Made by a program: the position numbers and the translations under genes. The notes beneath the pieces were generated by a model. It was not told the origin of the DNA and ran no database searches. It saw only the letters and a list, made by a program, of their open reading frames with translations. Below, in pieces: positions 15,469 through 61,529 of a stretch of DNA of 64,000 nt. Position 1 is the first letter of the stretch, and every line of letters starts with the position of its first letter. Source of the DNA: Flavivirga aquimarina (GTDB taxonomy: Bacteria; Bacteroidota; Bacteroidia; Flavobacteriales; Flavobacteriaceae); contig NZ_JAUOEK010000172.1 in assembly GCF_030540835.1 (NCBI RefSeq), positions 62,001 to 126,000 on the forward strand, in the 5' to 3' direction.

Positions 15469-15532
15469 CAATGTTAATTATTAAGAATAAGAGTAGTAAT
15501 AAATTATTATTCAATAACTATAAATTATAGTT
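15469..15532 (-). promoter_or_regulatory. HTCS operator-like element and -7-like box upstream of susC
   Basis: Read on the minus strand: a perfect 8+1+8 palindrome AACTATAATTTATAGTT (15516-15532), then a second ATTTAT ending at 15499, exactly 21 bp after the ATTTAT in the palindrome, then 22 bp, then TAACATTG (15469-15476), one mismatch from the -7 consensus. The 26 bp at 15499-15524 recur identically, inverted, at 15947-15972. A direct repeat at two helical turns suits an AraC-type DNA-binding domain such as that of the HTCS. Confidence 0.65.
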
Positions 15533-15946
15533 CTTTTAATTAAAAGTAGAAGCTTCAACTTAATTGTTTTATGTTAAAATTTTGTTTATAATGTTATTTA
15601 GTAGGTTACTTTTCTGTTATTTTTTTCAAAATTAAAACTTAATAAAACACATAATGTTTAATAGTTTTGGGATGAGGTTTTATGGGGTATTAAAAGGATG
15701 GGAATATTCTAAATAGTTGTTCCGAATAATCTAATGATTTGATTTTAAGGCAATTATAGTGTGGTGTTAAAATGCATATTTATTTTTGGGATTCCATAAA
15801 AGAATTAATTGGTAAAGAATTTAAAATCACTTCATGTAATTATTCTTACGAAAAGGTTTTAGTAATGAGATTTATAGGCGCATATTGTATTTTACGGAGT
15901 TGAAATATTTATAATTAGAGAAAAACATGATGTAAAAGGATGATAG
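15533..15946. other. gap between divergent operators, no gene recognised
   Basis: About 410 bp of AT-rich sequence. A 43-codon frame (15772-15903, plus) has no recognisable homology, and CAAAATTA at 15627-15634 gives an isolated -7-like box on the minus strand without a matching -33. I see no RNA gene or mobile element. Confidence 0.4.
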
Positions 15947-16002
15947 TTTATAGTTATTGAATAATAATTTATCCTTGATATTCATCATTCTGTTTATACT
16001 TG
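15947..16002 (+). promoter_or_regulatory. HTCS operator-like element and -7-like box upstream of the GH88 operon
   Basis: The right half of the palindrome (TTATAGTT, 15948-15955) and its downstream ATTTAT copy (ending 15972) are identical over 26 bp to the inverted copy upstream of susC. The left palindrome half is degenerate (4 of 8). After exactly 22 bp comes TATACTTG (15995-16002), a -7-like box, 71 bp before the GH88-like start codon. Confidence 0.6.
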
Positions 16003-16073
16003 CTATAAAATATATAGGAATTTTTCAGAATAACATAAAATCCTTAATTTAACACAAAAGACATAATACAGAT

Positions 16074-17285
16074 ATGACTCGATTATCATTATTACTATTA
16101 ACCATTTTTTTAATGGTTGCATGTGCTTCGCCTAAAAAGCAGGAACCAATATTTAGCCCAACAAAAATGTTGGATTTAAGTGTTTTAAAAACAAAAGAAA
16201 CACTTAAAGGTTTATCTGCAACAGACAGCTTTTTAAGAAATATTCCACAAGATAAAACCCATTGGGAATTTGTAGGGGTTAGGGATTGGTGTAGTGGTTT
16301 TTGGCCTGGAGTGCTATGGTATGCCTATGAGTACACTAAAGATGAATCGATTAAAAGCAAAGCTGAAAAATTTACCCTGCCTATTAAAACTATAGCATAT
16401 AGTCCGGCAAGAAATCATGATATTGGCTTTATGGTGTATTGCAGTTATGGTAACGGTTACAGGCTAACAGGAAATGAAGAATATAAGAAAGTATTATTGG
16501 CAGCCGCAGATACGTTGGCAACACTTTATAACCCAAATGTAGGGTCTATTTTATCTTGGCCAATAAAGAGGGAGGAATATTCACATAATACAATTATAGA
16601 TAACATGATGAATTTAGAGCTTCTTTTTTGGGCTTCTAAAAACGGAGGAGATAAGCGTTTATATGATATAGCTGTAAGCCATGCAGAATTAACCATGAAA
16701 AATATTGTTAGACCAGATAATGCTGTTTATCATTTAGGAGAGTTTAATGAAGAGACAGGAGAATTTATTAAAGGACATACACATCAAGGGTATGCAGATG
16801 AATCTATGTGGGCAAGAGGTCAGACATGGGGTATTTACGGTTTTGCAATTGCATACAGAGAAACTGGGAATCAAGAATTTTTAGAGACTTCTATAAAGTT
16901 AGCAAATCATTTTTTAGACCGTTTGCCTGAAGATGGTATACCATATTGGGATTTTGACGACCCGAAAATACCAAATGCTCCAAAAGATGCATCAGCAGCA
17001 GCTATAGCTGCCTGTGGGATGCTAGAATTAGCAGGTTTAGTTAAAGATGAAAAATTAAAAGAAAAATATATAAATGCGGCAAATAATTTTGTAGAAAAAC
17101 TATCATCTAAAGATTACTTTAGTGGTGATACAAATCAAGCCCTTTTATTGCATTCTACAGGGCATTACCCTAAGAATTCAGAAATTGACGTACCAATAAT
17201 TTATGCAGATTATTATTATATGGAAGCTTTAACGCGATTAAAAAAGATAGAGGTTCTAAATAATGCCTCACTAGCCCAAAAGTAA
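16074..17285 (+). CDS. GH88-family unsaturated uronyl hydrolase, lipoprotein
   Basis: A protein of 403 aa with a lipobox (VACAS) near residue 17. It has the alpha/alpha-barrel landmarks of GH88: NHDIGF (Asp116), IIDNMMN (Asp176), HQGYADESMWARGQTW, and DASAAAIAACGM. The two Asp residues correspond in motif context to the catalytic pair of unsaturated glucuronyl hydrolase. GH88 enzymes hydrolyse, by hydration of the double bond, the unsaturated uronic acid that polysaccharide lyases leave at non-reducing ends. This implies that the target backbone contains uronic acid and is cut by lyases. First gene of the plus-strand operon, downstream of an operator-like element. Confidence 0.88.
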   Translation: MTRLSLLLLTIFLMVACASPKKQEPIFSPTKMLDLSVLKTKETLKGLSATDSFLRNIPQDKTHWEFVGVRDWCSGFWPGVLWYAYEYTKDESIKSKAEKFTLPIKTIAYSPARNHDIGFMVYCSYGNGYRLTGNEEYKKVLLAAADTLATLYNPNVGSILSWPIKREEYSHNTIIDNMMNLELLFWASKNGGDKRLYDIAVSHAELTMKNIVRPDNAVYHLGEFNEETGEFIKGHTHQGYADESMWARGQTWGIYGFAIAYRETGNQEFLETSIKLANHFLDRLPEDGIPYWDFDDPKIPNAPKDASAAAIAACGMLELAGLVKDEKLKEKYINAANNFVEKLSSKDYFSGDTNQALLLHSTGHYPKNSEIDVPIIYADYYYMEALTRLKKIEVLNNASLAQK

Positions 17286-17312
17286 ATAGGGTTATTAAAT
17301 ATAATTAATAGT

Positions 17313-17367
17313 TAATGTTTCCAGATAATGGCTATAATGGCGATAGTCTAGGAGACATTACTTTTTT
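17313..17367 (+). terminator. weak terminator-like hairpin after the GH88 gene
   Basis: TAATGTTTCC (17313-17322) pairs with GGAGACATTA (17351-17360) apart from one G-T pair, with a 28-nt loop, and is followed by a T run at 17362-17367. The long loop makes it weak; it may attenuate rather than end transcription into the GH29 gene. Confidence 0.3.
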
Positions 17368-17426
17368 ACTAATAGTATGAGAATTCAATAGATTAGATAG
17401 CAAATAAATGTTGATAAATAATAAAG

Positions 17427-19193
17427 ATGAGAAAACTAATTTTAGTATTTATAGGTCTTATTTTAATTTTTAATTCAAGTTGTAAGGAAGTTCAAAGCCA
17501 AACTCAATTAGAAGAGGAAGTTAAACAGATTACTGATGAAGAACGTATGGAATGGTGGAAAGAGGCACGTTTCGGAATGTTTATTCATTGGGGTATTTAC
17601 TCCATTCCAGCAGGTTTTTATAAAGGAGAACCGCAAAAGAATAGTGCCGAATGGATTATGAATAGAGGAAAGATTCCTATTGCTGAATATGAGACATTTG
17701 CTAATGAATTCAACCCAACAAAATTCAATGCAAAAGAATTTGTAGCCTTAGCTAAAGAAGCTGGTATGAAATATATGGTCATTACGGCTAAGCATCATGA
17801 TGGGTTTTCTATGTTTAATTCTAAAGCTAGTCCATATAACATTGTAAAAGCCACACCTTTTAAGCGCGATGTTTTAAAAGAGTTGGCAAAAGCATGTCAG
17901 GAGCAAGGTATTAAATTCGGATTTTATTATTCTCAAGCGCAGGATTGGCATCATCCAGGAGGTATGGGGAATAACTGGGATAAAACTATTGAACGCGTAA
18001 GTAGTGATGCCTATGTGTATGAAAAAGCACTACCAGAAGTTAAACAATTATTGACTGAATATGGACCAATTGCTATTTTTTGGTGGGATACACCACGTAA
18101 AATGACAAAAGAAGTTGTAGATAGTTTATATCATATAACCACAGCTTTGCAACCAAAAATTATAACTAACGACCGTTTAGGAGAGGCGTATCCCGGAGAC
18201 CATAAAACTTTTGAAAGACATGGTCCAAGACGCACACCAGAAGCAAAATATTGGGAATTGTGTCAACCTATTAGTGGTAGTTGGGGATACCGTAGTGATG
18301 ATAATAATTTCAAATCTATAACAACGCTAATTCGTAATCTAATAGACCAAAGTAGTAAAGGAGGGAACTATTTACTTAATGTAAGTCCAACCTCAGAAGG
18401 AACGATAAAGTCTGAAGCAACAGATAGATTAAAAGCTATAGGAGCATGGATGAATACAAATAGTGAAGCTATTTATGGCACAGAGGCAAGCCCATGTGCA
18501 GATGAGCCAGAATGGGGAAGAATTACAATGAAGACCATTGACAATAGAGGGCTATTATACTTACACGTATATGATTGGGCTGACGGTGCATCGCTTCCTA
18601 TTAGACTTAATAATCAAGTAGAAGCCTGTTATTTGTTATCAGATAAAAGCAGAACTTTTAATGCAATACCTTTAGGAGAAGGAATACAAGTACAGTTAAC
18701 AGGGAATGCTCCTGATGCTATTGCTTCTGTCATAGTATTAAAATTAAAAGAGCTACCCAATGCACTTCCGCAAAAACCATTGGGGCAAGATGATGAAGGC
18801 GTAGTAACATTACCTGCATTTCGTGCACAATATGAGAATTTGCAAGGTCCTGGAGCGCAATATGATGAACGTAAGGATTGTGTGAGTAGTTGGGAAAGTG
18901 AAACAGCACGTGTATACTGGACATTCACAATAGAAAAACCAGGTGGTATGGTTGATATAAGTGCAGAATTTGCAGGAAATAACGATACTGAAATAACACT
19001 TACTTTTAATGGTAAATCTGAAAATATTAAAATTCCTGCAAGTGGTAATTCTAAAAAGTTTAAAGTTGTAGAATTAGGCAGTTTTGCTATTGATAAAGTA
19101 GGTTATTATGAAATTTCCATGCTACCTGTAGCAAATAAGTGGAAAGCAGTTAATATGAAAAGAGTCACCCTAAAGCCTAAACAATCAAAATAA
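17427..19193 (+). CDS. GH29-family alpha-L-fucosidase, lipoprotein
   Basis: A protein of 588 aa with a lipobox-like NSSC near residue 19. The catalytic barrel starts with WWKEARFGMFIHWGIYS, followed by ITAKHHDGFSMF, the His-rich substrate site of GH29. The expected nucleophile is Asp221 in IFWWDTP. After a C-terminal beta-sandwich, residues about 465-585 form another beta-rich domain with TITLTFNG-like strands. GH29 enzymes remove alpha-linked L-fucose with retention. It shares the operon direction with GH88, 141 bp downstream. The second GH29 in this window (28063) is only partly similar, so the two probably cleave different fucosyl linkages. Confidence 0.92.
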   Translation: MRKLILVFIGLILIFNSSCKEVQSQTQLEEEVKQITDEERMEWWKEARFGMFIHWGIYSIPAGFYKGEPQKNSAEWIMNRGKIPIAEYETFANEFNPTKFNAKEFVALAKEAGMKYMVITAKHHDGFSMFNSKASPYNIVKATPFKRDVLKELAKACQEQGIKFGFYYSQAQDWHHPGGMGNNWDKTIERVSSDAYVYEKALPEVKQLLTEYGPIAIFWWDTPRKMTKEVVDSLYHITTALQPKIITNDRLGEAYPGDHKTFERHGPRRTPEAKYWELCQPISGSWGYRSDDNNFKSITTLIRNLIDQSSKGGNYLLNVSPTSEGTIKSEATDRLKAIGAWMNTNSEAIYGTEASPCADEPEWGRITMKTIDNRGLLYLHVYDWADGASLPIRLNNQVEACYLLSDKSRTFNAIPLGEGIQVQLTGNAPDAIASVIVLKLKELPNALPQKPLGQDDEGVVTLPAFRAQYENLQGPGAQYDERKDCVSSWESETARVYWTFTIEKPGGMVDISAEFAGNNDTEITLTFNGKSENIKIPASGNSKKFKVVELGSFAIDKVGYYEISMLPVANKWKAVNMKRVTLKPKQSK

Positions 19194-19245
19194 GATTATT
19201 TTAAAAATTTGCTAAGCAATGATTGTACTAACATAAAAGTATCTC

Positions 19246-20349
19246 ATGAAGTTTGCTATAAAAAAAAATCTAAGCATACTATTATTTGTTGTGTGCACTA
19301 CGCTTTCCTATACCCAAAATCCGATATTAAATAACCTCAATGAAGCCCCCATTTATGGAGGTTTAGAGATGAAAGATTATTGGGTTTGGGGAAGCTCCGT
19401 AATAAAAGGAGATGATGGTAAATATCACATGTTTGCATCACGTTGGCCAAAAATGTTGCCTTTTCACCCAGGTTGGATGATAGCTTCAGAAATTGTACAC
19501 GCTGTTTCCGAAACGCCCGAAGGACCTTATAAATATGAAGATGTTGCTTTAGGAGCTAGAGGAACTCAATATTGGGATGGAAAATCATGCCACAATCCTA
19601 AAATTGTAAAGTATAAAGACACTTATATTTTGTATTACATGGGGTCTACGCATCCTTACGAAGATGTTACCAAAAAAAATAGTCATGAATTTGATTTATC
19701 TAGTAAATGGTGTATAGCTGGCAGATGGGGAAAACGTATTGGCATTGCAACATCAAAAAGCCCATACGGACCATGGAAACGATTAGATGCACCTATATTA
19801 GATGTAAAACCTAATACGTATTATAGTTTTTTAACTTCAAATCCGTCTCCATTAATTAAAAAAGACGGGTCGGTGGTTTTGCTTTTTAAAGGTAGAAGTT
19901 ATAAAGAAGATGAAATAAAGCATAGCGATATGAGTATTGGAGTGGCTACCGCACCATCATTTGATGGTCCATATACTGTTATAGGTGATACTCCATTATT
20001 TTCTATGGAACGTTTTGGCGAAATTGAAGACCCCCATTTATGGAGCGATAACGAAGGGTATCATATGATAGCTAAAGATCAAAGAGGCAAAATAACGGGG
20101 CATGCAGGTGATGGTCTTTTGGCACACTCAAAAGATGGTATTAATTGGGTGATCGATGAGTATCCTAAAGCATACACAAAAACCGTAAAGTGGAATGATG
20201 GTAAAACTATTAAGCAAGGACAATTAGAACGTCCATTTGTTTTTGTTGAAAATGGAAAACCAACACATATCTTTTTTGCAACTATGGATGGTCCAGGAGG
20301 ATTTGGAAAAGGGACAAAAACTTGGAATATGGTAATCCCATTAAAATAA
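19246..20349 (+). CDS. secreted beta-propeller glycoside hydrolase-like protein
   Basis: A protein of 367 aa with a Sec signal ending near SYTQ (about 24). Repeated blades such as DGKYHMFASRW, YKDTYILYYMGS, DGSVVLLFKGRS and NEGYHMIAKDQ are typical of the five-bladed propeller shared by GH43, GH32/68 and GH117. Acidic residues in the expected positions include KGDDGK early and GEIEDPHLW near residue 262. I cannot place it in a numbered family. It lies between the fucosidase and the sugar transporter, 53 bp after the former and 38 bp before the latter, so it probably hydrolyses an oligosaccharide in the periplasm. Confidence 0.75.
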   Translation: MKFAIKKNLSILLFVVCTTLSYTQNPILNNLNEAPIYGGLEMKDYWVWGSSVIKGDDGKYHMFASRWPKMLPFHPGWMIASEIVHAVSETPEGPYKYEDVALGARGTQYWDGKSCHNPKIVKYKDTYILYYMGSTHPYEDVTKKNSHEFDLSSKWCIAGRWGKRIGIATSKSPYGPWKRLDAPILDVKPNTYYSFLTSNPSPLIKKDGSVVLLFKGRSYKEDEIKHSDMSIGVATAPSFDGPYTVIGDTPLFSMERFGEIEDPHLWSDNEGYHMIAKDQRGKITGHAGDGLLAHSKDGINWVIDEYPKAYTKTVKWNDGKTIKQGQLERPFVFVENGKPTHIFFATMDGPGGFGKGTKTWNMVIPLK

Positions 20350-20387
20350 AATTTAATAATTATAAACTAATTAATACCTATTATAAG

Positions 20388-21713
20388 ATGAACAAAAAAA
20401 TAGTATTATGGTCTATTACAGCAGCCCTTGCAGGTTTTTTATTTGGGTTTGATGTTGTAGTGATTTCCGGAGCAGATAAAAAATTACAACTTTTATGGGA
20501 ATCTTCAGATTCTTTTCATGGATGGGTAGTTATGGGAGCTGCGCTTGCAGGTACTGTAGTTGGGGCAATTTTTGGAGGGTTTCCAACAAACAAATACGGA
20601 CGTAAAAACACATTAATTGTTATAGGTGTTTTATTTGCTATATCTGCAATAGGTTCGGCTTTTGCTAACGACCCTTGGTTTTTTGCTATTGCTAGATTTA
20701 TAGGAGGCCTAGGTGTTGGAGCCTCAACTATTGCAGCGCCCGCTTATATCTCTGAAATTGCTCCAGCAAAAAACAGAGGACGTTTAGTTGCTATGTACCA
20801 ATTTAACATCGTGTTTGGTATTTTAATTGCTTTTATGTCTAATTATTTGTTGAGTGGTTTAGGTGAAAATGCTTGGAGGTGGATGTTAGGTGTTGAAGCG
20901 ATTCCTGCAGTATTATATATTTTATTTGCATTAGGTGTGCCCAAAAGTCCAAGGTGGCTTGCAACTAAAGGAAGAATAGAAGAAGCAAAAGAAGTTTTAA
21001 AAATAATAAATCCAGAAGCTAATATTGAAGCACAATTGCAAGAGTTTCAAAGTCATGCATCGACTAGTAATAAGTCTGAGAATATTTTTATGAAAAAATA
21101 TAAATTTCCTTTAATGTTAGCTTTTTTAATTGCGTTTTTTAATCAGTTTTCTGGGATAAATGCTTTTCTATACTATGCACCAAGAATTTTTGAAGAAGCT
21201 GGGTTAGGAGAAAGTATAGCGCTGTTAAGTAGTGTAGGTATAGGTGTAACTAATCTTATCTTTACATTGTTGGGAATGTTTTTAATAGATAAATTAGGAA
21301 GAAAAACCCTAATGTATTTAGGCTCTATCGGTTATATTATATCTTTAAGTTTGGTTTCGGCAGCATTCTTCTTAGGGTGGACAGGTATGATGGTTCCTAT
21401 ATTTTTATTCCTATTTATTGCAGCTCATGCCATTGGGCAAGGTGCTGTTATTTGGGTATTTATTTCTGAAATTTTCCCGAACCATTTAAGAGCTTCAGGT
21501 CAAGCTTTCGGAAGTTCAACACATTGGATTTTGGCATGGATTATTCCTTCATCAATCCCATTTTTGTTTAATCACCCCGCAATTGGTCCAGGACTAGTAT
21601 TCTTGTTTTTTGCAGTAATGATGGTATTTCAATTATTATTTGTTGCTTTTGTGATGCCAGAAACAAAAGGGAAAACTTTAGAAGAATTAGAAGATGTAAT
21701 GCTAAAGAAATAG
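20388..21713 (+). CDS. MFS sugar transporter (sugar porter family)
   Basis: A protein of about 441 aa starting at MNKKIVLW; an upstream start at 20322 would overlap the preceding gene and add 22 residues that are not membrane-like. Twelve hydrophobic segments can be followed. Sugar-porter signatures are visible: NKYGRKNTL after TM2-3, PKSPRWLATKGR before the central loop, and PETKGKTLEELE at the C-terminus. It lies in the inner membrane and would carry a monosaccharide in symport with protons or sodium. Its place in the operon suggests the released sugar (fucose, xylose or similar). It is not of the FucP type. Confidence 0.9.
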   Translation: MNKKIVLWSITAALAGFLFGFDVVVISGADKKLQLLWESSDSFHGWVVMGAALAGTVVGAIFGGFPTNKYGRKNTLIVIGVLFAISAIGSAFANDPWFFAIARFIGGLGVGASTIAAPAYISEIAPAKNRGRLVAMYQFNIVFGILIAFMSNYLLSGLGENAWRWMLGVEAIPAVLYILFALGVPKSPRWLATKGRIEEAKEVLKIINPEANIEAQLQEFQSHASTSNKSENIFMKKYKFPLMLAFLIAFFNQFSGINAFLYYAPRIFEEAGLGESIALLSSVGIGVTNLIFTLLGMFLIDKLGRKTLMYLGSIGYIISLSLVSAAFFLGWTGMMVPIFLFLFIAAHAIGQGAVIWVFISEIFPNHLRASGQAFGSSTHWILAWIIPSSIPFLFNHPAIGPGLVFLFFAVMMVFQLLFVAFVMPETKGKTLEELEDVMLKK

Positions 21714-21726
21714 TAATTCTAGCAGT

Positions 21727-22548
21727 ATGAAAGCCATACTAAATTTCGTAGTATTATTTCTTTTTGTAGTTACAACATTTGCCTCAAACGTAGACACACT
21801 TGTAGTGTATAGCAAATCAATGCACAAAGAGATAAAGAATGTCGTAATTACCCCAGACTCTTATTCAAAAAAAGGAAAAGCGTATTCAGTTGTTTATCTA
21901 TTACATGGAGCAGGAGGTAATCACGAAGCTTGGTTAGAAAAGGCTCCAAATATTAAGACCTATGCCGATTTATATGATGTTATTATAGTTTGTCCAGATG
22001 GTCATAAAACCAGTTGGTATTTTGATAGTCCTATCGATTCCAAAATGAAATATGAAACTTATATTTCAAAAGAATTAGTAGCAGAGATCGATACAGCGTA
22101 TAACACATTAGCAAATAATAAAAATAGAGCAATAACTGGTTATAGTATGGGTGGTCATGGCGCACTGTATTTAGCATTTAAACATCCCGATATCTGGGGT
22201 GTAGTAGCGAGCATGAGTGGCGGCGTTGATATTAGACCTTTTTCTTTAAAGTGGGAGATTGCTAAACGGTTAGGAACTTATGCCGAAAATCCAAAAAACT
22301 GGGAAGAAAATACAGTTATTAATTTAGTTTACTTATTAAATGGTAAAAATTTAAAAATTCTTTTTGATTGTGGTGTTGATGACTTTTTTTATGATGATAA
22401 TTTAAGACTTCATAACAAATTATTAGAACGTAACATTCCACACGATTATATTGAACGACCAGGTGGACATACAAATAAATATTGGAGTCATTCTATAATC
22501 TATCAAATGGTTTTTTTTGATAATTTTTTTAATAGTAAATCCAAATAA
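21727..22548 (+). CDS. CE1/esterase-D-like alpha/beta hydrolase, secreted
   Basis: A protein of 273 aa with a signal peptide ending near TFAS (about 20). LLHGAGGNHEAW supplies the oxyanion loop, GYSMGG contains the nucleophile Ser140, and His248 in RPGGHTNKYW would complete the triad with an Asp in the GVDDFF region. The fold is that of CE1 and esterase D. It could remove acetyl or aromatic esters from the glycan. It starts 13 bp after the transporter, so it is cotranscribed. The substrate is inferred from context only. Confidence 0.83.
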   Translation: MKAILNFVVLFLFVVTTFASNVDTLVVYSKSMHKEIKNVVITPDSYSKKGKAYSVVYLLHGAGGNHEAWLEKAPNIKTYADLYDVIIVCPDGHKTSWYFDSPIDSKMKYETYISKELVAEIDTAYNTLANNKNRAITGYSMGGHGALYLAFKHPDIWGVVASMSGGVDIRPFSLKWEIAKRLGTYAENPKNWEENTVINLVYLLNGKNLKILFDCGVDDFFYDDNLRLHNKLLERNIPHDYIERPGGHTNKYWSHSIIYQMVFFDNFFNSKSK

Positions 22549-22772
22549 GATTAATTCAAAATAGAATATGAAAACCTATAAACAGATAGTCATATTTATA
22601 AACGAAATTAAGAAATTAAATAACAGTTTAGGTATAATATTTGTGACATGGCTTAACAAAAATTGAAGAAAAAGTCAAGATGAGTTCTTAATAAAAATAA
22701 CGATTCAATCATTCATATTAAAAAGGATAAATATAAGTGTTGTATAAAAAAATTAATTATAGAAAGATAAAC

Positions 22773-25565
22773 ATGTATACTAAAGCTGCTTTTGTAGTGG
22801 CATGTGTGTTTTTGAATATCAGCGTATTAATAGCACAAACAAATGCGCATCCAAGAATTTACACAACCAATGATTCTAAAGATGAATTCCTTCAAAGAAT
22901 TAAAGATGTTGCGTGGAAAAAGAGTTTTGTTGAAAAGAAAACCCAAAACCTTGAAAAGTATTTGAAATTTTGTCAAAATGACCCCAACTGGCTGGTTTCA
23001 AGATTGCAAATGAACTGGAAAACAAAACATAGTAAAGTGTTTTTAGATGGTGGTAATTTTTCGTATTCTTCTGGAAAAGCTCCAGTACCTACAGTTCGTT
23101 TTTCCGGAACTAGAGATTGGGCAACAGATTATAAGCAACCAAAACTTGAAAATGTTATTCCGTATTTAGATGATCCAAGAGGCGTCTATTTAGAGCATAA
23201 AAAAACAGGAAAAAAGGAATGGGTACATCCTTCTAAATCTGGACATTCTATAGAAGGTATTAACAGAAAAGTAATGAGTTTGGTAGAAGATGCCGCTTTT
23301 TTATATTGGGTCACAGGCGATAAAAAATATGCAGAGTTTGCAACTCCAGTATTTTTAAAATATATAGAAGGGATGTATCATAGAGATGCTCCTATAGATA
23401 TAAAGAATTCTAACCAACAACGTATTTCTGGTTTGGCGACTTTCGAGGTTATTCATGAAAAAATTCTTTTACATCTTGTAACTACTTACGATTTTCTATT
23501 TAATTATTTTAAAAAAGAAAAGATAGATCTTTCAAATGCGGTTGCTGTTTTTCAAAAATGGGGAGATCAAATTATAGTTAATGGTATTCCAGATAATAAT
23601 TGGAACCTTTTTCAAGCCCGTTTTTTAACTTATGTCGCTTTAGTATTAGAACCCAATGAAAACTACAAGAATGGTAAAGGAAGAGAATATTTCTTAGAGC
23701 ATACATTCGATAAATCAACCGAAAGACAACTGTCTATAAAAGAATCACTTCTAGTTTACGACCAAGAAACAGGAATGTGGCCAGAATGTGCATCCTATTC
23801 AACGCATGTTATTACATCGTTATTGGAAATTATTACACTACTCGATAATTTTACAAATACCAATGAGCTTTCCAATTTCCCTATTATAGAAAAGGCAGCA
23901 CTAGCTTCTTTTCAATATTTATTTCCTAGTGGTTATATTGTTGGTTTTGGAGATTCTGCACATAAAATAATTCCTCCCAAAAATTTTGAACTTTTAATAT
24001 CGAACTATGAGAAATATAAACAAGAAGAAAAAGAACTTTTAATTTCTGGTTTACTTCATACCATGTTAGATGAAGGAAAATATAAAAGAAAAACGGGTAA
24101 TTTATTTGAATTGTTTTTTTATGTAGATAAAATAAAAAAAGATGAAACAAATAAGGATAAAGCAGAAGCAAAGAAGCTCATTTCTCCTACTTTTTATGCC
24201 TCAAATGTGAGTATGTTTAACCAAAGGTTGGGACAAGGAGATAATGCTGTAATGGTTTCAACAGTAGGGTCTTATGGAAACCATTCACACGTTAATGGAA
24301 TCTCTATAGAGTTATTTGCTAATAAGTATGTTTTAGGACCAGATATGGGGAAAGGATCCAGCTATTGGCACTCCGATCATAGAGAATATTATTCCCGTTT
24401 TCCTGCACATAATACAGTAGTTGTAGATGGTGCTTCAGATTATGATGCCATGCGAGGATACCATCCATTTGAGTTGGATAACTATTTTCCAGAATTAGGT
24501 GAGACTCCAATTTTCGATAAAATAACCTTTTCCAAAGTGTCTTTTTTCGAACCAAAGACAAAATCTAACCAGCAGCGATTTACTGCCATCATTAAATCAA
24601 ATTCTAATAAAAATTATATTGTAGATATATTTCGATCTAAAAAGCAAGAACCAGGAAAACAAAGGCATGATTACTTTTACCATAACTTAGGGCAATCACT
24701 GCAAATATTCCAGAATAAGAATGAATTGAAATTATCTAAAACAGATGATTTTGGATCACATCAAGGCGATATAAAGGGCTATGATTATTTAACGGATAAA
24801 ACAAAAATTGAAACCCCAAAAGATGTTCAGGCCCAGTTCCAAATAGAAAGCAAAGAATCGCCAAATAATGTAATGAAAATATGGGTAAAAGGGAATGAAG
24901 ATCAAAGTGTGTATTCGGTAAAATCGCCTAAATCTAAAGCTACATCAAGCGGTACAGCTCCAAAAGAAATAGTAAATAATCCTATGGCTACTTTAATTTT
25001 AAAAAGAGAAGCTGCCGCTTGGGAAAACCCATTTGCATTGGTATTTAATCCTTATATTGAAGGAACCGAAAATCCTATTGAAAATGTAACGTATTTAAAC
25101 TTTAAAGATAACCCAGAAACACAGGTTATAGATGTTTTATTGAGCGATAAAACAACAGTAGACAGAATGGTTTTAAATACAACAGAAAATGATGCTGTTA
25201 AAAATGGCGAATTTTATCAAAAAGGACTTTTTTCTATAGCTAGGCAGTTAAAAAACAAAAATTCGATGGACTTTTTGTTTGTTTCTGGCATGTATAAATA
25301 TGAGCAAAACGGGTGGGAGATTATATCATCAGGAGACCCCGTAACGATATCTTTTGAAAATATAGAAAGCGGATATCAGTTTCAAAACAATGCACCAGCG
25401 CTTATTAGAATACCCTTTTTGAACAATAAAAAATCGGCTGAAATAAGGTTGTATAAAGGCAATAAATTGTTGGAGGTAAGACAAGCAGTTATGAGTAGAT
25501 ATAGTAAACAAATTGAGTTTAGATTATCAGAAGCTTATGAAAAAGGAGAAGTTGTTTTTAAATAA
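22773..25565 (+). CDS. heparinase II/III-like protein (putative polysaccharide lyase), copy 1
   Basis: About 930 aa from the ATG at 22773 (signal peptide ends near LIAQ); an upstream GTG at 22737 adds 12 basic residues and is less likely. The N-terminal half is an alpha-helical toroid (WLVSRLQMNWKTK, VPTVRFSGTRDW, NNWNLFQARF). The following part resembles the heparinase II/III beta-sandwich with SYGNHSHVNGISIELF and YYSRFPAHNTVVVDG, where His and Tyr residues are candidate catalytic groups. Lyases of this group cut uronic-acid glycosidic bonds by beta-elimination, which fits the GH88 gene. A paralogue is encoded at 45568-48300 with the same motifs. The region 22549-22772 upstream holds no gene. 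Confidence 0.82.
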   Translation: MYTKAAFVVACVFLNISVLIAQTNAHPRIYTTNDSKDEFLQRIKDVAWKKSFVEKKTQNLEKYLKFCQNDPNWLVSRLQMNWKTKHSKVFLDGGNFSYSSGKAPVPTVRFSGTRDWATDYKQPKLENVIPYLDDPRGVYLEHKKTGKKEWVHPSKSGHSIEGINRKVMSLVEDAAFLYWVTGDKKYAEFATPVFLKYIEGMYHRDAPIDIKNSNQQRISGLATFEVIHEKILLHLVTTYDFLFNYFKKEKIDLSNAVAVFQKWGDQIIVNGIPDNNWNLFQARFLTYVALVLEPNENYKNGKGREYFLEHTFDKSTERQLSIKESLLVYDQETGMWPECASYSTHVITSLLEIITLLDNFTNTNELSNFPIIEKAALASFQYLFPSGYIVGFGDSAHKIIPPKNFELLISNYEKYKQEEKELLISGLLHTMLDEGKYKRKTGNLFELFFYVDKIKKDETNKDKAEAKKLISPTFYASNVSMFNQRLGQGDNAVMVSTVGSYGNHSHVNGISIELFANKYVLGPDMGKGSSYWHSDHREYYSRFPAHNTVVVDGASDYDAMRGYHPFELDNYFPELGETPIFDKITFSKVSFFEPKTKSNQQRFTAIIKSNSNKNYIVDIFRSKKQEPGKQRHDYFYHNLGQSLQIFQNKNELKLSKTDDFGSHQGDIKGYDYLTDKTKIETPKDVQAQFQIESKESPNNVMKIWVKGNEDQSVYSVKSPKSKATSSGTAPKEIVNNPMATLILKREAAAWENPFALVFNPYIEGTENPIENVTYLNFKDNPETQVIDVLLSDKTTVDRMVLNTTENDAVKNGEFYQKGLFSIARQLKNKNSMDFLFVSGMYKYEQNGWEIISSGDPVTISFENIESGYQFQNNAPALIRIPFLNNKKSAEIRLYKGNKLLEVRQAVMSRYSKQIEFRLSEAYEKGEVVFK

Positions 25566-25668
25566 AGGAAGACAAGAAGGAGATAGATGTTATATTGAGA
25601 CGGTACACGAAGCAGATTTGTTTTTACAATCAATCGGTTATTTAAAAGGAAAAAGTACAATAAAATAA
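25537..25668 (+). CDS. small uncharacterised ORF or gene remnant
   Basis: A 43-codon frame starts inside the end of the heparinase-like gene (29-nt overlap) and stops 2 bp before the next ATG. Its residues (GDRCYIETVHEADLFLQSIG) look protein-like, but I recognise no family. It could be a small protein, or the tail of a deleted gene, of which there are several further along. Confidence 0.3.
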   Translation: MKKEKLFLNKGRQEGDRCYIETVHEADLFLQSIGYLKGKSTIK

Positions 25669-25670
25669 AT

Positions 25671-28040
25671 ATGAAGAAAATAATCGTTTTATTAACTATA
25701 GTTGTTGTAGCTTTTTCTTGTGTGGCACAAGAAAATAATAAAGTATTTTTTGTATCAAAAGAAGGTGTTAAAAATAATGATGGATCAAAACAACATCCAT
25801 TACCAAGTATAGAAGAAGCAATAAAAAAAGCAAGTGACCTAAAATTAAAAGCCCCTAATACCAGTATAATTATAAATATATTGCCAGGAGATTATTATTT
25901 ATCTGAAGCAATACAAATCACGCCTCAATTAAATGGTATAACCCTAAAAGGCTCAGATACATTCGAAGTTACCATTAAAGGCTCTAGGCTTTTAACATTG
26001 GAGTGGAATAAATATAATGATAATATTTATGTTGCTTCTGTACCCAAAAACTCAAACTTCGACCAATTAGTTATTAACGGCACACCTCAAATTTTAGCAC
26101 GTTACCCAAATTATAATGAAGAAGCTCATTATTGGCAAGGGTATGCAGAAGACGCGATATCGAAAGAGCGAGTAGCATCATGGGAAAAACCAGAAGGTAC
26201 TTATTTTCATGCGTTACACAGAGGTAGATGGGGTGGGTTTCATTTTGAAATTACAGGCGTAAACAAAGACGGAACGGCTATTTTGAAAGGAGGGCATCAA
26301 AACAATAGAGGATCTAAACCCCACAAGGAATACCGTATGGTTGAAAATGTTTTTGAAGAATTGGATAACCCTGGCGAGTGGTATTTAGATAAACATAATA
26401 ATAAACTCTATTATTGGCCAACAACAGAGGTATCACTTAAAACATCTAAAGTTGAGGTATCGGCATTAAAAGATTTAATACAGGTGATAGGTACTTTAGG
26501 AAATCCAGTAAAAAATGTAACCATTAGCGGCATAAAATTCGAAAATACCAGACGTACTTTTATGGAAGATTTTGAACCTTTATTGCGAAGCGATTGGACT
26601 ATTTATAGAGGCAGTACACTTTTCTTTGAAGGCACAGAAACTTGTAAAGTAGAAAATAGTGAATTCGCCAATTTAGGAGGCAATGTTATAATGGCTAGCA
26701 AGTATAATAAAGACCTTCAAATTATTGGAAACCATATACATGATTGTGGTGCCAGTGCCATCTCATTTATTGGAGATCCATCAGCGGTAAGATCACCGTC
26801 ATTCAATTATGGCGAATATATTCCAGTGACAAAAATGGATACTATTTCTGGACCAAAAAATGAATTATACCCAAGAGCATGTTTAGTAGAAGATAATTTA
26901 ATATATAGAATAGGTAGGCTTGAAAAACAAACCGCAGGCGTTCAAATATCTATGGCTATGGATATTACAGTAAGTCATAATAGTATTTATGATGTGCCTC
27001 GTGCTGGAATAAACATTGGCGATGGCACCTGGGGAGGGCATATTTTAGAATATAATGATGTGTTTAATACCGTGTTAGAAACCAGTGATCATGGTTCGTT
27101 TAACTCTTGGGGTAGAGACCGTTTTTGGCATCCAAAACGCCATATTATGGATAATTTAACAACAGCAAACCCCAATATGCCTAAATGGGACGCTATAAAA
27201 ACAACGATTATTCGCAATAACCGTTTTCGTTGCGATCATGGTTGGGATATTGATTTAGATGATGGATCGTCTAACTATCATATTTATAATAATTTATTAT
27301 TAAATAGTGGTCTTAAATTACGTGAAGGCTTTAATAGAGTTGCCGAAAATAATATTATAGTAAATAACTCTTTACATCCACATGTATGGTTTGAGAAAAG
27401 TGAAGATGTCTTTAAACATAACATTGTTGGTGATGCTTATCAAGATGTTGGTTTAAAAGGCTGGGGAAAAGAATTGGATTATAATTTTTTTCCAACAGAA
27501 GTATCTATGATGAAATCCCAAATTTACGATAGAGATAAAAATAGCACATTTGGAGACCCCTTATTTAAAGACCCCGCGAATCTAGATTTTACAATTTCTG
27601 AAAATTCGCCAGCATTTAAAGTTGGTTTTAAAAACTTTCCGATGGATCAGTTTGGTGTTAAAAAATCAGATTTAAAGGCCATAGCCAAAACACCAGAAAT
27701 ACCAGATTTAAAAGATCCTTTAAAAAAGGGTGAAGAAAGCGCTCCAGTGGTTGCTTGGTTACGAAACAATCTTAAAAGCGTAGAATCTGAACAAGAACAA
27801 TCTGCTTACGGGTTAAATACAGCAGAGGGTGTTATTATACTTCGTGTATGGAAACCTAGTCCAGCAGCGCAAGGAGATGGTATAAAAAAAGGCGATGTTA
27901 TACTAAAAGCAGCAGGAAAAGAAGTTAAAAACATAAAAGACTTTTTTGAGATTAGTGCAGCTCATAATAAAACAGACGAATTAGATTTGGTAATTATGAG
28001 AAATCAATCAGAAAAGGAAATTACCATAAAAACAAAATAA
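25671..28040 (+). CDS. right-handed beta-helix glycosidase-like protein with C-terminal PDZ domain
   Basis: A protein of 789 aa with a signal peptide ending near VAQ (about 20; the Cys at 17 is a weak lipobox). From FVSKEGVKNNDGSKQHP through about residue 690 it is a parallel beta-helix, with DQLVINGTPQILARYPN and EWYLDKHNNKLYYWP segments typical of GH141-like proteins (GH141 includes an alpha-L-fucosidase and a xylanase). Residues about 705-788 form a PDZ domain (GVIILRV, GDGIKKGDVILKAAGKEV). GH141-like activity on fucose would suit the neighbouring GH29 genes, but family assignment needs a profile search. PDZ on a glycosidase-like protein is unusual. It is 22 bp upstream of the next gene, so cotranscribed. 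Confidence 0.72.
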   Translation: MKKIIVLLTIVVVAFSCVAQENNKVFFVSKEGVKNNDGSKQHPLPSIEEAIKKASDLKLKAPNTSIIINILPGDYYLSEAIQITPQLNGITLKGSDTFEVTIKGSRLLTLEWNKYNDNIYVASVPKNSNFDQLVINGTPQILARYPNYNEEAHYWQGYAEDAISKERVASWEKPEGTYFHALHRGRWGGFHFEITGVNKDGTAILKGGHQNNRGSKPHKEYRMVENVFEELDNPGEWYLDKHNNKLYYWPTTEVSLKTSKVEVSALKDLIQVIGTLGNPVKNVTISGIKFENTRRTFMEDFEPLLRSDWTIYRGSTLFFEGTETCKVENSEFANLGGNVIMASKYNKDLQIIGNHIHDCGASAISFIGDPSAVRSPSFNYGEYIPVTKMDTISGPKNELYPRACLVEDNLIYRIGRLEKQTAGVQISMAMDITVSHNSIYDVPRAGINIGDGTWGGHILEYNDVFNTVLETSDHGSFNSWGRDRFWHPKRHIMDNLTTANPNMPKWDAIKTTIIRNNRFRCDHGWDIDLDDGSSNYHIYNNLLLNSGLKLREGFNRVAENNIIVNNSLHPHVWFEKSEDVFKHNIVGDAYQDVGLKGWGKELDYNFFPTEVSMMKSQIYDRDKNSTFGDPLFKDPANLDFTISENSPAFKVGFKNFPMDQFGVKKSDLKAIAKTPEIPDLKDPLKKGEESAPVVAWLRNNLKSVESEQEQSAYGLNTAEGVIILRVWKPSPAAQGDGIKKGDVILKAAGKEVKNIKDFFEISAAHNKTDELDLVIMRNQSEKEITIKTK

Positions 28041-28062
28041 AAACCTTCATAAACTATCAAAA

Positions 28063-30148: not shown

Positions 30149-30279
30149 ATCCTTTTTTTCATTGATATCAATTGAAATGTAGCATTAAGTTTCTGTTTTT
30201 CACAATCAACCTGAGACCGCTTTTACAAATACAGGAGAGATTATTAACCTACCTGACTAGATACTAATTGTAATAGGTT

Positions 30280-30340
30280 CATAATTTATATATCCTGAGT
30301 GATGATTTATACGAATTATACTAAAAAATAAATAACCTTG
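30280..30340 (+). promoter_or_regulatory. operator-like element upstream of the DUF1080 remnant
   Basis: A degenerate palindrome (CATAATTTATATA, from 30280) with ATTTAT at 30284-30289 and a second ATTTAT at 30305-30310, exactly 21 bp apart. After 22 bp comes TAACCTTG (30333-30340), a -7-like box. The pattern and its distance to the next ATG (66 bp) match the copy at 39471. The sequence at 30150-30279 holds nothing recognised. Confidence 0.55.
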
Positions 30341-32578: not shown

Positions 32579-32753
32579 AGGCTCATTTTTTATTGATTTA
32601 TGAAAAATTTTTAATCTATGCGTTATAACCACATTGTTAAATTAATTTTTTAATATTTTTTCAATGTTACTCTTGTTAAAGAGTTGCAATGGAGTAATAT
32701 AACTATCCAAATTATTTAAGAAGCAAGTATTTTGAGGGGCAAATATAAAAATG

Positions 32754-32789
32754 AACTATAGTTTATTGTCAAGAGTCTATAATTTATAG
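32754..32789. promoter_or_regulatory. partial operator-like element
   Basis: CTATAATTTATAG at 32777-32789 is the 6+1+6 core of the recurring palindrome; AACTATAGTTTAT (32754-32766) just before it resembles a half. The second ATTTAT at 21 bp and the -7-like box are not clearly conserved. The rest of the 32579-32904 gap contains a hairpin (32853-32862 with 32892-32902) around the ATG at 32878 but no gene. Confidence 0.4.
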
Positions 32790-32904
32790 TATTTAAATTA
32801 AATTTTTATAAATTTTGTTGTCTTGCGACCCAATATTATAGTTGTTTGAAAATTAAAGAGGGTGCATAGGTTTTTTTATGAACTCTTTAAGCCCTCTTTT
32901 AAAC

Positions 32905-45529: not shown

Positions 45530-45567
45530 TAATATATCTAAATAGAAATAAAAAATATAAATTAAAG

Positions 45568-48300: not shown

Positions 48301-48327
48301 ATATTTAAATTACATAACTCATAAAAA

Positions 48328-53012: not shown

Positions 53013-53018
53013 AACATT

Positions 53019-58090: not shown

Positions 58091-61000
58091 ATGATGAAAT
58101 CTAAAATTCTATTTTTTTGTACTCTTTTATTGGTCGTAGTTGCCTGTGATAAAAAAAAGGTAGAAAACCTTTCTCTGTTGGAGTTTTTACAAGTAGAAGA
58201 AACAGGTATAGATTTTTCCAACGATATTAAAGAAGGACTGGGGCAAAACGACAATATTCTAACATATACCAACTTTTATAATGGTGGTGGAGTTGCAGTA
58301 GGAGATATAAATAATGACGGTTTAGTAGATTTATATCTAAGTGCCAATCAAAAGACTGGAAAGTTGTTTTTAAACAAAGGAGGGTTCAGATTTAAAGACA
58401 TCACCCCAGAATCTGGATTAGATACTATTTCTGGTTGGAAAACAGGTGTCACTATGGTGGACATTAACCAAGACAATCTTTTAGATATATATGTTTGTAG
58501 ATCTGGGAGAGTACACCCACAAAATAGAACCAACCTATTATTTATTAATAATGGTGATTTAACATTTACTGAAAACGCCAAAGAATATGGACTTGATGAT
58601 AGCAGTAATTCTATACAAGCAACCTTTTTTGATTATGATATTGATGGTGATTTAGATATGTTTTTACTTAATCATGCCATAGACCCAATAAAAAAACTAA
58701 CAAGACATTTAGATAATTATGAGGACGATACCAACATTGGTGATAAATTATATAAAAATACAGATGGTCATTTTGCAGAAGTTGGGAAATCAACAGGAAT
58801 TCTACAATCGCCACTTGGAGATGGTCTTGGTGTAGCCGTAGGAGATCTTTATAATGACGGACAGCCAAGTATATATGTCTGTAATGATTTCTTAGGGAGA
58901 GACTATTTATACAACTATACAGGAAAAGGAACCTTTAAAGAGAATGCATTACAAGCAATGAACCACATATCCTATTCTTCAATGGGAGTAGATATGGCAG
59001 ATATTAATAATGATGGTTGGCAAGATATATTTGTTGTAGATATGAAATCCTCAACAAATTATGGGAGGAAGACTAATATGGCGTCTATGGATCCTAAAGC
59101 ATTCGATATTTTGGTGAAAGTTGGTGGGCATTATCAATATATGCGGAATACTTTGCAAATGAATAATGGGAACCATACTTTTTCAGATATTGCTCCCATG
59201 GCGGGTTTAGCAAGTTCAGATTGGAGTTGGGCACCTCTATTTGTAGATTTAGATAATGATGGTTTTAAGGATTTATTCATAACCAATGGAATACGAAAAA
59301 ACACCAATAATAAAGATTACGATACCTATAGAAAAGAAAGATTTGAGATTGAAAGGAAAAAAGTAAGACCAGATATAAAATCTTTAGTGAAAGAAATATT
59401 GAATAAGATTCCATCAGAAGAAGCGGTAAATCTTGTTTATAAAAATATTGATGGATTAAGCTTTGAAAAAAAGAATGAAAATTGGGGTGTCAATATACCT
59501 TCATTTTCTAACGGAGCTGCATATGCCGATTTCGATAATGATGGGGATATGGATTTAGTAATAAACAATGTGGACCAACCAGCCCATGTTTATAGAAATA
59601 ATAGTACCGAAATATCAAATAACCATTATATCAAAGTAAAACTTAATGGCAACCCATTAAATGTAAATGGAATTGGGGCAAAGGTTATGGTACAAACAAA
59701 TAGCGGAAAACAATTTATTGAGCAACATGTTAGCCGCGGTTATCAATCTAGCGTAGATTTTAAATTACATTTTGGACTTGGGAATAATGAAATAATTGAC
59801 ACATTAAGAGTGACTTGGCCTGATGGTAAAGTGAACGAAATGACAGAGGTTGAAGCAAACCAATTAGTATCCATAAACTATAATACAGCTACCGAACCAT
59901 CGCTAGTTAAAGAAAAAGAAGACACGTTTCTTTTCTCCGATATTACTAAAGCGTATGGTTTATCCCATGAACACATGGAAAACGGATACAACGATTTTAA
60001 ACGTGAAGTACTTCTGCCACATAAGATGTCTACATTTGGACCAGCACTTGCAGTTGGAGACATTAACCAAGACGGTTTAGACGATTTTTTTATAGGAGGA
60101 AGCAAGAATTATGAAGGAGCTATATACCTTCAGAACACCAATAAGACGTTTACAAAAACAAATCAAAAACAAATTATTACTGATCGTATACATGAAGATT
60201 TAGATGCCTTATTTTTTGATGCCGATAATGACGGCGATTTAGATTTATATGTAGTAAGTGGTGGTAATGAAATGCCTATCAATCATCCATATTATCAAGA
60301 TAGATTATATATTAATAATGGTCAAGGTCTCTTTACCAAATCAACAAAATCTATACCTAAAATGCATGCAAGCGGTGGTGTCGTTAAAGCTAACGATTTT
60401 GATGCAGATGGTGATTTAGATTTATTTATAGGCGGTAGGTTGTTACCAGGTAAATACCCGCAAACAAGTCGTAGTTATTTACTTGAGAACATAAATGGGC
60501 AATTTACAGATGTAACATCCAATCATTCTACAGATTTGGAATTTCCAGGAATGGTAACAGATGCCATTTGGTCAGATTATAATAGTGATGGAGTAAAAGA
60601 TTTAATATTAGTTGGAGAATGGATGCCCATTACAATTTTCGAAAACAATAGCGGAACACTAAGTAAATTGAAACAAAATTCTGGACTCGATAAAAGTAAT
60701 GGTTGGTGGTTTAGTATAGCAGAAGCAGATGTGAATAACGATGGTTCCATGGATTATTTACTTGGTAACTTAGGCGAGAATTATAAATACAAAACGACAC
60801 CAGAAGCGCCGTTCAATTTATATTCTAATGATTTTGATAATAATGGTTCTTTAGATATCGTATTGAGTTTTTATGAAAATGATACATTATATCCATTAAG
60901 AGGAAAAGAATGTTCAACACAGCAAATCCCCGCACTCAAAAATAAATTTAAGAATTATAATGCTTTTGGCTTAGCCACATTAGAAGATGTTTATGATACA

Positions 61001-61414
61001 AAATCTTTAGAAAATGCCACACATTTAAAAGCACATACATTTTCTAATAGTATACTAATTAACAACAAAGAGCGCTTTAATTTGGTAAAACTTCCAAGAG
61101 AAGCACAGGCTTCATCGGTGTTTGGAATACTTTATAATGATTTTGATAACGACGGATTAAATGACCTAGTTATTGCAGGAAACCTATTTAATTCGGAAAC
61201 GGAAACTCCTAGAAACGATGCTGGTCAAGGATTGTTTTTGAAAGGAAATGGAACTGAAAACTTTACACCAGTAAGCAATTATATTTCAGGATTAAATATT
61301 CCTGGAGATGTAAAAAAAGTAAAACCGATTAGGCTAGGGAAAGTTGATGATGCGAAAAATGGATTTATAGTTGCAGTTAATAATGACTTTTTAAAATTGA
61401 TAACCATAAATTAA
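58091..61414 (+). CDS. FG-GAP/VCBS repeat lipoprotein with ASPIC/UnbV domain
   Basis: A protein of 1107 aa with a lipobox (VVAC, about 19). Seven or more FG-GAP-type repeats with DINNDGLVDLYLS, DINQDNLLDIYV, DFDNDGDMDLVINN, DINQDGLDDFFIGG and DADGDLDLFIGG bind calcium and should form beta-propellers. The central region (about 510-610; YIKVKLNGN, GIGAKVMVQTNSGKQFIEQH, LRVTWPDGKVNEM) matches the ASPIC/UnbV domain. Proteins of this type commonly follow SusCD in Bacteroidetes PULs and are thought to sit on the cell surface; their biochemical role is not established. It is downstream of SusD on the same strand, after the hairpin at 57901. Confidence 0.88.
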   Translation: MMKSKILFFCTLLLVVVACDKKKVENLSLLEFLQVEETGIDFSNDIKEGLGQNDNILTYTNFYNGGGVAVGDINNDGLVDLYLSANQKTGKLFLNKGGFRFKDITPESGLDTISGWKTGVTMVDINQDNLLDIYVCRSGRVHPQNRTNLLFINNGDLTFTENAKEYGLDDSSNSIQATFFDYDIDGDLDMFLLNHAIDPIKKLTRHLDNYEDDTNIGDKLYKNTDGHFAEVGKSTGILQSPLGDGLGVAVGDLYNDGQPSIYVCNDFLGRDYLYNYTGKGTFKENALQAMNHISYSSMGVDMADINNDGWQDIFVVDMKSSTNYGRKTNMASMDPKAFDILVKVGGHYQYMRNTLQMNNGNHTFSDIAPMAGLASSDWSWAPLFVDLDNDGFKDLFITNGIRKNTNNKDYDTYRKERFEIERKKVRPDIKSLVKEILNKIPSEEAVNLVYKNIDGLSFEKKNENWGVNIPSFSNGAAYADFDNDGDMDLVINNVDQPAHVYRNNSTEISNNHYIKVKLNGNPLNVNGIGAKVMVQTNSGKQFIEQHVSRGYQSSVDFKLHFGLGNNEIIDTLRVTWPDGKVNEMTEVEANQLVSINYNTATEPSLVKEKEDTFLFSDITKAYGLSHEHMENGYNDFKREVLLPHKMSTFGPALAVGDINQDGLDDFFIGGSKNYEGAIYLQNTNKTFTKTNQKQIITDRIHEDLDALFFDADNDGDLDLYVVSGGNEMPINHPYYQDRLYINNGQGLFTKSTKSIPKMHASGGVVKANDFDADGDLDLFIGGRLLPGKYPQTSRSYLLENINGQFTDVTSNHSTDLEFPGMVTDAIWSDYNSDGVKDLILVGEWMPITIFENNSGTLSKLKQNSGLDKSNGWWFSIAEADVNNDGSMDYLLGNLGENYKYKTTPEAPFNLYSNDFDNNGSLDIVLSFYENDTLYPLRGKECSTQQIPALKNKFKNYNAFGLATLEDVYDTKSLENATHLKAHTFSNSILINNKERFNLVKLPREAQASSVFGILYNDFDNDGLNDLVIAGNLFNSETETPRNDAGQGLFLKGNGTENFTPVSNYISGLNIPGDVKKVKPIRLGKVDDAKNGFIVAVNNDFLKLITIN

Positions 61415-61468
61415 ATTACTGTCCAGTTAATAAAGACAAATAAAAATATAGAACCTCGTAAAAATAAG

Positions 61469-61529
61469 TTATAAATTATAGGTGATGAGTCATGATTTAT
61501 ATTTAATTCAATTAAAATAAATAATTTTA
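61469..61529 (+). promoter_or_regulatory. operator-like element upstream of the GH31 gene
   Basis: TTATAAATTATAG (61469-61481), one mismatch from the recurring palindrome core, with AATTAT at 61474-61479 and ATTTAT at 61495-61500, exactly 21 bp apart. TAATTTTA (61522-61529) follows after 21 bp, one mismatch from the -7 consensus. It would bring the GH31 gene under the same regulator as the first susCD pair. Confidence 0.5.

Follow-up and report, generated by a model that had tools for sequence, protein, structure and literature searches.

What links the promoters of the large polysaccharide utilization locus (PUL) on contig NZ_JAUOEK010000172.1 of Flavivirga aquimarina? The contig (167,041 bp of a 5.29-Mb genome; hereafter C92) includes a stretch of 64,000 nucleotides, C92:62001-126000, which we call the window. 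Here a gene at 5364-9563 encodes a hybrid two-component system (HTCS) regulator, and a composite sequence element recurs upstream of genes for glycan use. The original prediction described this element as a palindrome, an ATTTAT-type repeat 21 bp further on and a -7-like box beyond that, and proposed that the AraC-type domain of the HTCS binds it and that it defines a regulon.

The five sites reported (S1 to S5) are all found in place. Their repeat distance is 21 bp, and the gap to the TAnnNTTG or TAnnTTTA box is 22 bp (21 bp for S5), as described. With up to three mismatches allowed, the pattern TATAATTTATAG-N3-TTGANTNATNATTTAT retrieves precisely these five sites from the window, whereas 100 dinucleotide shuffles averaged 0.00 matches. 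Genome-wide, nine matches have no more than one mismatch, and every one falls in the HTCS-linked locus, on C92 from 77.5 to 166 kb. Random occurrence, which had been named beforehand as the result that would speak against the idea, was thus not seen. At the two-mismatch level there are 19 further matches, 2 on C92 and 17 elsewhere; a reversed control pattern with up to two mismatches gives 12 matches versus 28 for the real one. The two additional C92 sites (153835 and 155743) were picked from the 19 for being on this contig, and each, when left out of the matrix in turn, still scores well (32.9 and 33.4, respectively).

This brings the number of strong sites to 11, spanning 89 kb of C92, with cores starting at contig positions 77499 (minus strand), 77947, 92285, 101478, 123475, 128135, 130535, 153835, 155743, 159029 and 166081. 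In a whole-genome model search all 11, which also trained the model, have E values of 1.2e-8 or lower. A matrix built from them adds two weaker sites on C92, at 94748 (S6 in the window), where a TTG is in phase, and at 151311. The original five sites are therefore real but too small a set: there are 11 strong and two weaker ones on C92, and one more on contig C129. Of two supposed partial copies, that at 32777-32789 is in fact the promoter-proximal half of the full but weaker S6, whose upstream half we found. The other, at 30065-30081, does contain a half-site, but it stands alone and is absent among the matrix matches listed. This lone half-site directly follows the stop codon of the gene at 28063-30051, and is itself followed by an inverted repeat, CAATGTTAT...ATAACATTG.

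The element consists of two 16-bp half-sites, TGAAnnATAATTTATA, arranged as a direct repeat 21 bp apart; ATTTAT is a correct core, within this longer unit. When the matrix is compared with itself, the best direct match occurs at a shift of 21 bp (7.89), the next being -4.08. In 55 sites from other genomes, the two halves read TGAA..ATAATTTATA and TGAAT.ATAATTTATA, and identity between positions 21 bp apart is 70%, compared with 26-38% at every other shift between 17 and 25. Each half-site has its TGAA and TTTAT separated by roughly one helical turn, which suggests that the four boxes lie on successive turns. The palindrome is not a conserved part. All six of its complementary pairs are present in just 2/11 of the F. 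aquimarina sites, and only three of six in another 3/11. We reject it as a functional part and regard it as an incidental by-product of the half-site ATAATTTATA. One locus of another genome (L075:14582-14644) has three tandem half-sites in 21-bp steps, which creates two overlapping operator registers with scores of 22.0 and 28.5.

The protein encoded at 5364-9563 contains, by Pfam, a Reg_prop propeller sensor, Y_Y_Y, HisKA, HATPase_c, a receiver and a C-terminal AraC-type HTH_18 domain (residues 1312-1387). It thus unites sensor, kinase, ATPase, receiver and AraC-type helix-turn-helix in one polypeptide, as expected of an HTCS, and it adjoins a susC/susD PUL (10339-15429, Pfam). In translation, the receiver carries ETCHIPV, that is, a CHIP motif. 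A scan of GTDB genomes provided 72 loci: 18 surrounding orthologues of this protein (55-78% identity), 53 controls surrounding distant HTCSs or kinases, and L108, a 36-residue match that was set aside. A site scoring at least 26 is present in 14 of the 18 orthologue loci; among these 14, L043 and L047 are identical in sequence. The top score in the 53 control loci (0.98 Mb, GC-rich hosts included) is 22.1, and in the 24 controls with GC under 0.40 (0.44 Mb) it is 13.5. The pattern and its reversed control give 25 versus 0 matches in the orthologue loci.

We similarly searched 199 genomes of the family. For the protein, with three candidates scored per genome, the matches listed fall into two groups: nine genomes, from nine genera, have one with at least 56% identity, and the others are at most 41% identical. 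For the operator, we scanned the same genomes with a sequence-only model built from the 11 sites, under stricter filters and with 25 candidates scored per genome. Matches with E<=1e-4 were found in 9/9 of the genomes with an HTCS orthologue versus 0/190 of the others. With the training genome left out the count is 8/8, for which the chance under random labels is 1/C(198,8)=2e-14. A genome of the same genus, G019, has a best HTCS match of 36% identity and no operator match at E<=0.01 (0.031 under looser settings). The element therefore shows both features used to predict HTCS operators, direct repeats ∼21 bp apart and conservation at PULs along with orthologous HTCSs.

Placement relative to genes was assessed with 69 sites, comprising 13 on C92, the C129 site and 55 elsewhere, from 0.92 Mb scanned. 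None of the 69 is inside an open reading frame (ORF) of at least 200 codons, although such ORFs make up 87% of the DNA, and 60/69 have an ORF of 80 codons or more that starts no further than 300 bp downstream. The distance to the -7 box is also constrained. In 9 of the 11 strong F. aquimarina sites, the second ATTTAT is followed at 26 or 27 bp by a TTG; for the six sites outside the window, which the original prediction did not cover, the proportion is 5/6 (p ∼7e-7 under a simple null based on the per-base TTG rate). For the other genomes, the matrix ended at the operator so that the -7 box was excluded. Among 18 loci picked by the HTCS protein alone, an in-phase TTG is present at 21/21 distinct sites; among 19 stretches picked via a model that included the -7 box, a less independent test, the figure is 26/34. 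Altogether, 47/55 sites have TTG in phase, 40 at 27 and 7 at 26. The proximal half-site ends 22 bp before the TA of the TAnnNTTG box, a class II-type placement at -33/-35. In F. johnsoniae (Flavobacterium johnsoniae), the -7 consensus has been confirmed and no -33 motif found (PMC7366714), a gap that an activator could fill. We also considered an RNA element, and rejected it given that no Rfam family reaches its gathering threshold in the window and that the conserved block comes before the -7 box.

The -7-like boxes themselves vary. Set beside TAnnTTTG, the -7 sequence of Bacteroidetes sigma-A promoters, the boxes with TTG at 27 have the TA in 44/45 cases, but the T before TTG in only 4/45. 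In 11/56 in-phase sites TTG is one base closer; a C then follows in 9/11, and the TA is missing from its usual place in 7/11. Sites of this form include C92 128135, 130535, 153835 and 159029, L145:4599 and L146:9209. The form precedes a 531-residue SASA esterase in two genomes (at 153929 of C92, and at L145:2926 in genome G121), and it resembles TAnnTTGY, motif SM5 of F. psychrophilum (PMC9723704).

Operators also occur far from the HTCS gene. In genome G014, a single contig, the HTCS gene is at 3.708 Mb and a cluster of sites is at 2.262-2.322 Mb, 1.4 Mb away. Eight sites in this cluster score at least 21, and five of them reach E<=0.001 in the model search. Six of the eight are followed by identified genes (CBM6, sulfatase, GH88, SusC, GH3 and SASA esterase) and two by genes without a Pfam match. 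A search confined to HTCS-type regulators revealed none in the cluster, the sole other HTCS-like match at E<=1e-40 being at 3.36 Mb. In F. aquimarina, one of the 17 two-mismatch matches off C92, C129:30167, has a matrix score of 31.4, a TTG in phase and an E value of 0.0013. It precedes genes for a fasciclin protein, SusC and SusD, the first of which begins 577 bp away. This fasciclin protein shares 69% identity with the one encoded next to the HTCS in G121; relative to the fasciclin-SusC-SusD genes adjoining the HTCS in Algibacter amylolyticus (L076), SusC is 78% and the fasciclin protein 58% identical. Both of these HTCS-side loci bear the operator. Because C92 ends shortly after its last site, C129 could adjoin C92 in the closed genome. 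The G014 cluster is free of this doubt about linkage.

These data indicate that the element is a tandem operator of the HTCS at 5364-9563 with a class II activator-like placement, a reading to which we assign a probability of about 0.88; binding and activation are predicted here from sequence. The original proposal of a binding site and regulon is thus favored by computation, because the matches with at most one mismatch are all in the HTCS locus, the site and the HTCS co-occur (9/9 versus 0/190 genomes at E<=1e-4), and operons on another contig or 1.4 Mb away keep the site. Fragments of two Bacteroides HTCSs bind susCD promoters in a phosphorylation-dependent manner, with inhibition tied to an S/CHIP-DK signature (PMC11253607), and a Bacteroides HTCS associates directly with DNA at activated and repressed PULs (PMC3404733). 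In F. aquimarina, the TGAA and TTTAT boxes of each half-site would fit the two helix-turn-helix units of one AraC-type domain, so that a dimer would line up four recognition units on the same face of the DNA. The proximal half-site would occupy the -33 region, as for a class II activator; judging by the rigid spacing, the protein may touch sigma or polymerase directly. Upon sensing of the glycan, phosphorylation of the receiver would free the DNA-binding domain, which would pair on the tandem site and recruit polymerase, acting together on 11-13 promoters in the 89-kb PUL and on at least one operon on another contig. Given the GH29, GH95 and sulfatase content, the ligand is probably a fucose-rich sulfated algal glycan.

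A more ambitious picture, which we offer tentatively and with the odds somewhat against it, is that the HTCS is a membrane-bound master switch acting in trans on a multi-PUL super-regulon in Flavobacteriaceae. More than 10 promoters, including a whole PUL 1.4 Mb away that lacks its own HTCS, would have been recruited by gaining a rigid four-box operator phased to the -7 box. The two -7 registers (TTG at 27 with TA, TTGC at 26 mostly without) would then distinguish two classes of promoter, for which different sigma factors may be responsible.

Could the site belong instead to another regulator, such as a separate AraC-type protein, a SusR-like protein or a global factor, which has simply been inherited together with the PUL? 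Linkage by itself cannot separate neighboring regulators, and the locus does encode an extracytoplasmic function (ECF) sigma factor and FecR pair at 51001-52867. Seven of the scanned C92 ORFs have no Pfam match at 1e-5. However, among the 50 ORFs scanned on C92 between 62 and 167 kb, Pfam identifies only the HTCS and the ECF factor as DNA-binding regulators, and the AraC-type geometry suits the former. The site also tracks the HTCS orthologue over nine genera, and G019, with its best HTCS match at 36% identity, has no operator match at E<=0.01. We therefore consider another regulator improbable.

It is also quite unlikely, in our estimation, that the HTCS binds the site as a repressor or roadblock. 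Such a role has some precedent, in that a Bacteroides HTCS is reported to repress certain PULs in trans and to associate with them directly (PMC3404733). Yet the site is located just upstream of the -7 box rather than over it, in a constant phase that corresponds to a class II activator position. Moreover, the protein keeps the CHIP motif, which is tied to phosphorylation-dependent DNA binding in PMC11253607, and the -7 boxes deviate from TAnnTTTG in seldom having T before TTG.

Finally, similarity due to recent duplication of promoter plus leader, a mobile repeat or AT-rich chance can be largely dismissed on the cross-genome tests: spacers are alike in some pairs (128135/130535, 0.81; 92285/101478, 0.74; 153835/159029, 0.71), so some promoter copying probably occurred, but the upstream flanks are at background identity (mean 0.32, versus 0.69 in the operator) and hence recent copying does not explain the operator, which is conserved in other genera. 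Chance and recent operator duplication are rejected by these flanks together with the shuffles, the reversed controls (12 versus 28 and 0 versus 25) and the avoidance of ORFs.

Several observations weigh against assignment of the operator to the HTCS, or temper the statistics behind it. The matches listed include none, by matrix or model, before the HTCS gene itself. Four of the 18 orthologue loci (L046, L048, L051 and L052; 60-73% identity) have no clear site in the locus DNA scanned, and one pattern match with one mismatch occurs in a control locus. TTG is out of phase or absent in 8/55 sites of other genomes and in 2/11 F. aquimarina sites. For 92285, 101478, 155743 and the C129 site, the first ORF of at least 80 codons begins 409-722 bp downstream. 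The two weak C92 sites stand poorly genome-wide (E 0.054 for 94748 and 0.032 for 151311), and 151311 also lacks an in-phase TTG. The half-site is slightly positive against its own reverse complement, with a best inverted match of 1.23. The E cut-off in the 199-genome comparison was set after the results had been viewed, the clean split holding anywhere from 5.7e-5 to 5.1e-4; at E 0.01, thirteen other genomes show one or two weak matches each. One further caveat is that sites of related loci are themselves related, and hence the counts overstate independence and the p-values are optimistic.

In the Algibacter loci L046 and L048 (60-61% identity), the domain alignment reveals an altered second helix-turn-helix, with STAYFSK changed to STTYFGK or SSTYFGK. 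Together with the lack of a clear operator, this may possibly reflect a shift in specificity. L048 contains a candidate repeat, GGGTTATGGTTTTGA/GGTTTATAATTTTGA, at 21 bp; a genome-wide pattern search found one copy in its genome and none in that of L046.

Table 1. Operators, -7-like boxes and associated genes of the window (window coordinates)
Feature	Position	Strand	Basis
HTCS regulator, 1399 aa	5364..9563	+	Pfam, translation
SusC (12157-15429) and SusD (10339-12156), after S1	10339..15429	-	Pfam
-7-like box TAACATTG, 22 bp past S1, TTG at offset 27	15469..15476	-	
Operator S1 (two half-sites, 21 bp apart), before susC	15499..15534	-	Pattern and matrix
Operator S2	15937..15972	+	Pattern and matrix
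-7-like box TATACTTG, 22 bp past S2	15995..16002	+	
Gene run after S2: GH88, GH29, unassigned, sugar major facilitator superfamily (MFS), esterase, heparinase II/III-like, beta-helix/PDZ, GH29-GDSL	16074..30051	+	Pfam
Operator S3	30275..30310	+	Pattern and matrix
-7-like box TAACCTTG, 22 bp past S3	30333..30340	+	
Sulfatase; starts 409 bp past S3 as the first ORF of at least 80 aa	30719..32578	+	
Operator S6, sixth, weaker; matrix score 23.7; TTG at offset 27	32752..32787	+	Matrix
Alginate-lyase-like/CBM6 protein, 91 bp after S6	32878..34956	+	
Operator S4	39468..39503	+	Pattern and matrix
-7-like box TAATATTG, 22 bp past S4	39526..39533	+	
Gene run after S4: thioredoxin-like, unassigned, GH95, unassigned, GH95	39944..50697	+	Pfam
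Operator S5	61465..61500	+	Pattern and matrix
-7-like box TAATTTTA (TTA, not TTG), 21 bp past S5	61522..61529	+	
GH31 after S5, extends past the window	61669..63999	+	Pfam

The genes that follow the operators are listed in Table 1; those of the run after S2 are presumably co-transcribed. After both S3 and S4 the first long ORF is more than 400 bp from the operator, and after S4 the first ORF begins 441 bp past it. By eye, the leaders downstream of these two sites (30377-30493, and 39570 onward) are alike, and start short ORFs that end early, ATGGTAAAA/ATGGTAAAG. These short ORFs may be what is left of a gene, since lost or decayed, that stood behind copied promoters. Inside the HTCS locus, the segment 51001-57863 of the window encodes the ECF sigma factor, a FecR-type anti-sigma factor and a second SusC/SusD pair. 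No operator precedes these genes among the matrix matches listed, which suggests a second control circuit nested in the locus. The last strong site on C92 precedes a gene for a DctP-type solute-binding protein (of a tripartite ATP-independent periplasmic, or TRAP, transporter; C92:166223-167041, L024:223-1041), which is cut by the end of the contig.

How does the element compare with known systems? E. coli AraC binds araI1-I2 as tandem half-sites two turns apart, the proximal one in the -35 region, in a class II-like manner. The F. aquimarina element shares with it the tandem AraC-type half-sites, the two-turn spacing and the proximal position at -33/-35, and differs in that its putative regulator is a membrane-bound hybrid kinase rather than a soluble sugar-binding protein, and that the promoter is of the Bacteroidetes -7 type. 

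Parallels also come from gut Bacteroides. Motifs were predicted for 16 Bacteroides HTCSs by Ravcheev et al. 2013 (PMC3878776), all of them direct repeats, with an average of 21 bp between sites; HTCS_Man, for example, has two 16-bp sites with a 5-bp spacer. The statement in the original prediction that DNA sites of HTCS regulators are described for few systems needs qualifying in this light. Like those operators, ours has direct-repeat sites (12-16 bp in Bacteroides) at this average distance, before susC or PUL operons, and tracks HTCS orthologues. It differs from those predictions in its Flavobacteriaceae-type hosts, in the phase to the -7 box, measured over further sites, and in the co-occurrence over 199 genomes, its half-site sequence being described here in its own right. 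Given the 2013 predictions, the direct-repeat 21-bp architecture is already known. BT4124 and BT4663 of B. thetaiotaomicron also combine a receiver with an AraC-type domain and a CHIP motif, and gel shifts showed their phosphorylation-dependent binding to susCD promoters (PMC11253607). They control other PULs, and the clade studied here is at most 41% identical to other HTCSs among the matches listed, a within-family figure.

In the marine flavobacterium Zobellia galactanivorans, the carrageenan regulon of CgrA likewise involves an AraC-type regulator and dispersed induced loci (PMC5698469). Unlike the present protein, CgrA is termed an AraC-family factor and not an HTCS, and the passages of PMC5698469 that we consulted give no operator for it. 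PMC12125979 was dropped as an HTCS precedent, as it concerns a soluble XylR-like protein of Vibrio. Among the top-ranked PMC papers listed in our literature search, judged mainly by titles and the openings of abstracts, there was no HTCS operator for Flavobacteriaceae. What this analysis adds, and what the sequence comparisons support well, is a putative HTCS operator in this family, its promoter phase, its co-inheritance with the HTCS over 199 genomes and a set of candidate targets in trans.

In Bacteroidota, HTCSs rank among the major regulators of glycan use, and the operators we found in print are predictions in gut Bacteroides. A phased operator tied to one HTCS clade in a marine-rich family would make regulons readable from sequence, and would place SusCD operons and enzymes from unlinked loci within a single glycan response. 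The same promoter set would be well suited to studying how a membrane-held AraC-type factor activates the unusual polymerase of the Bacteroidetes.

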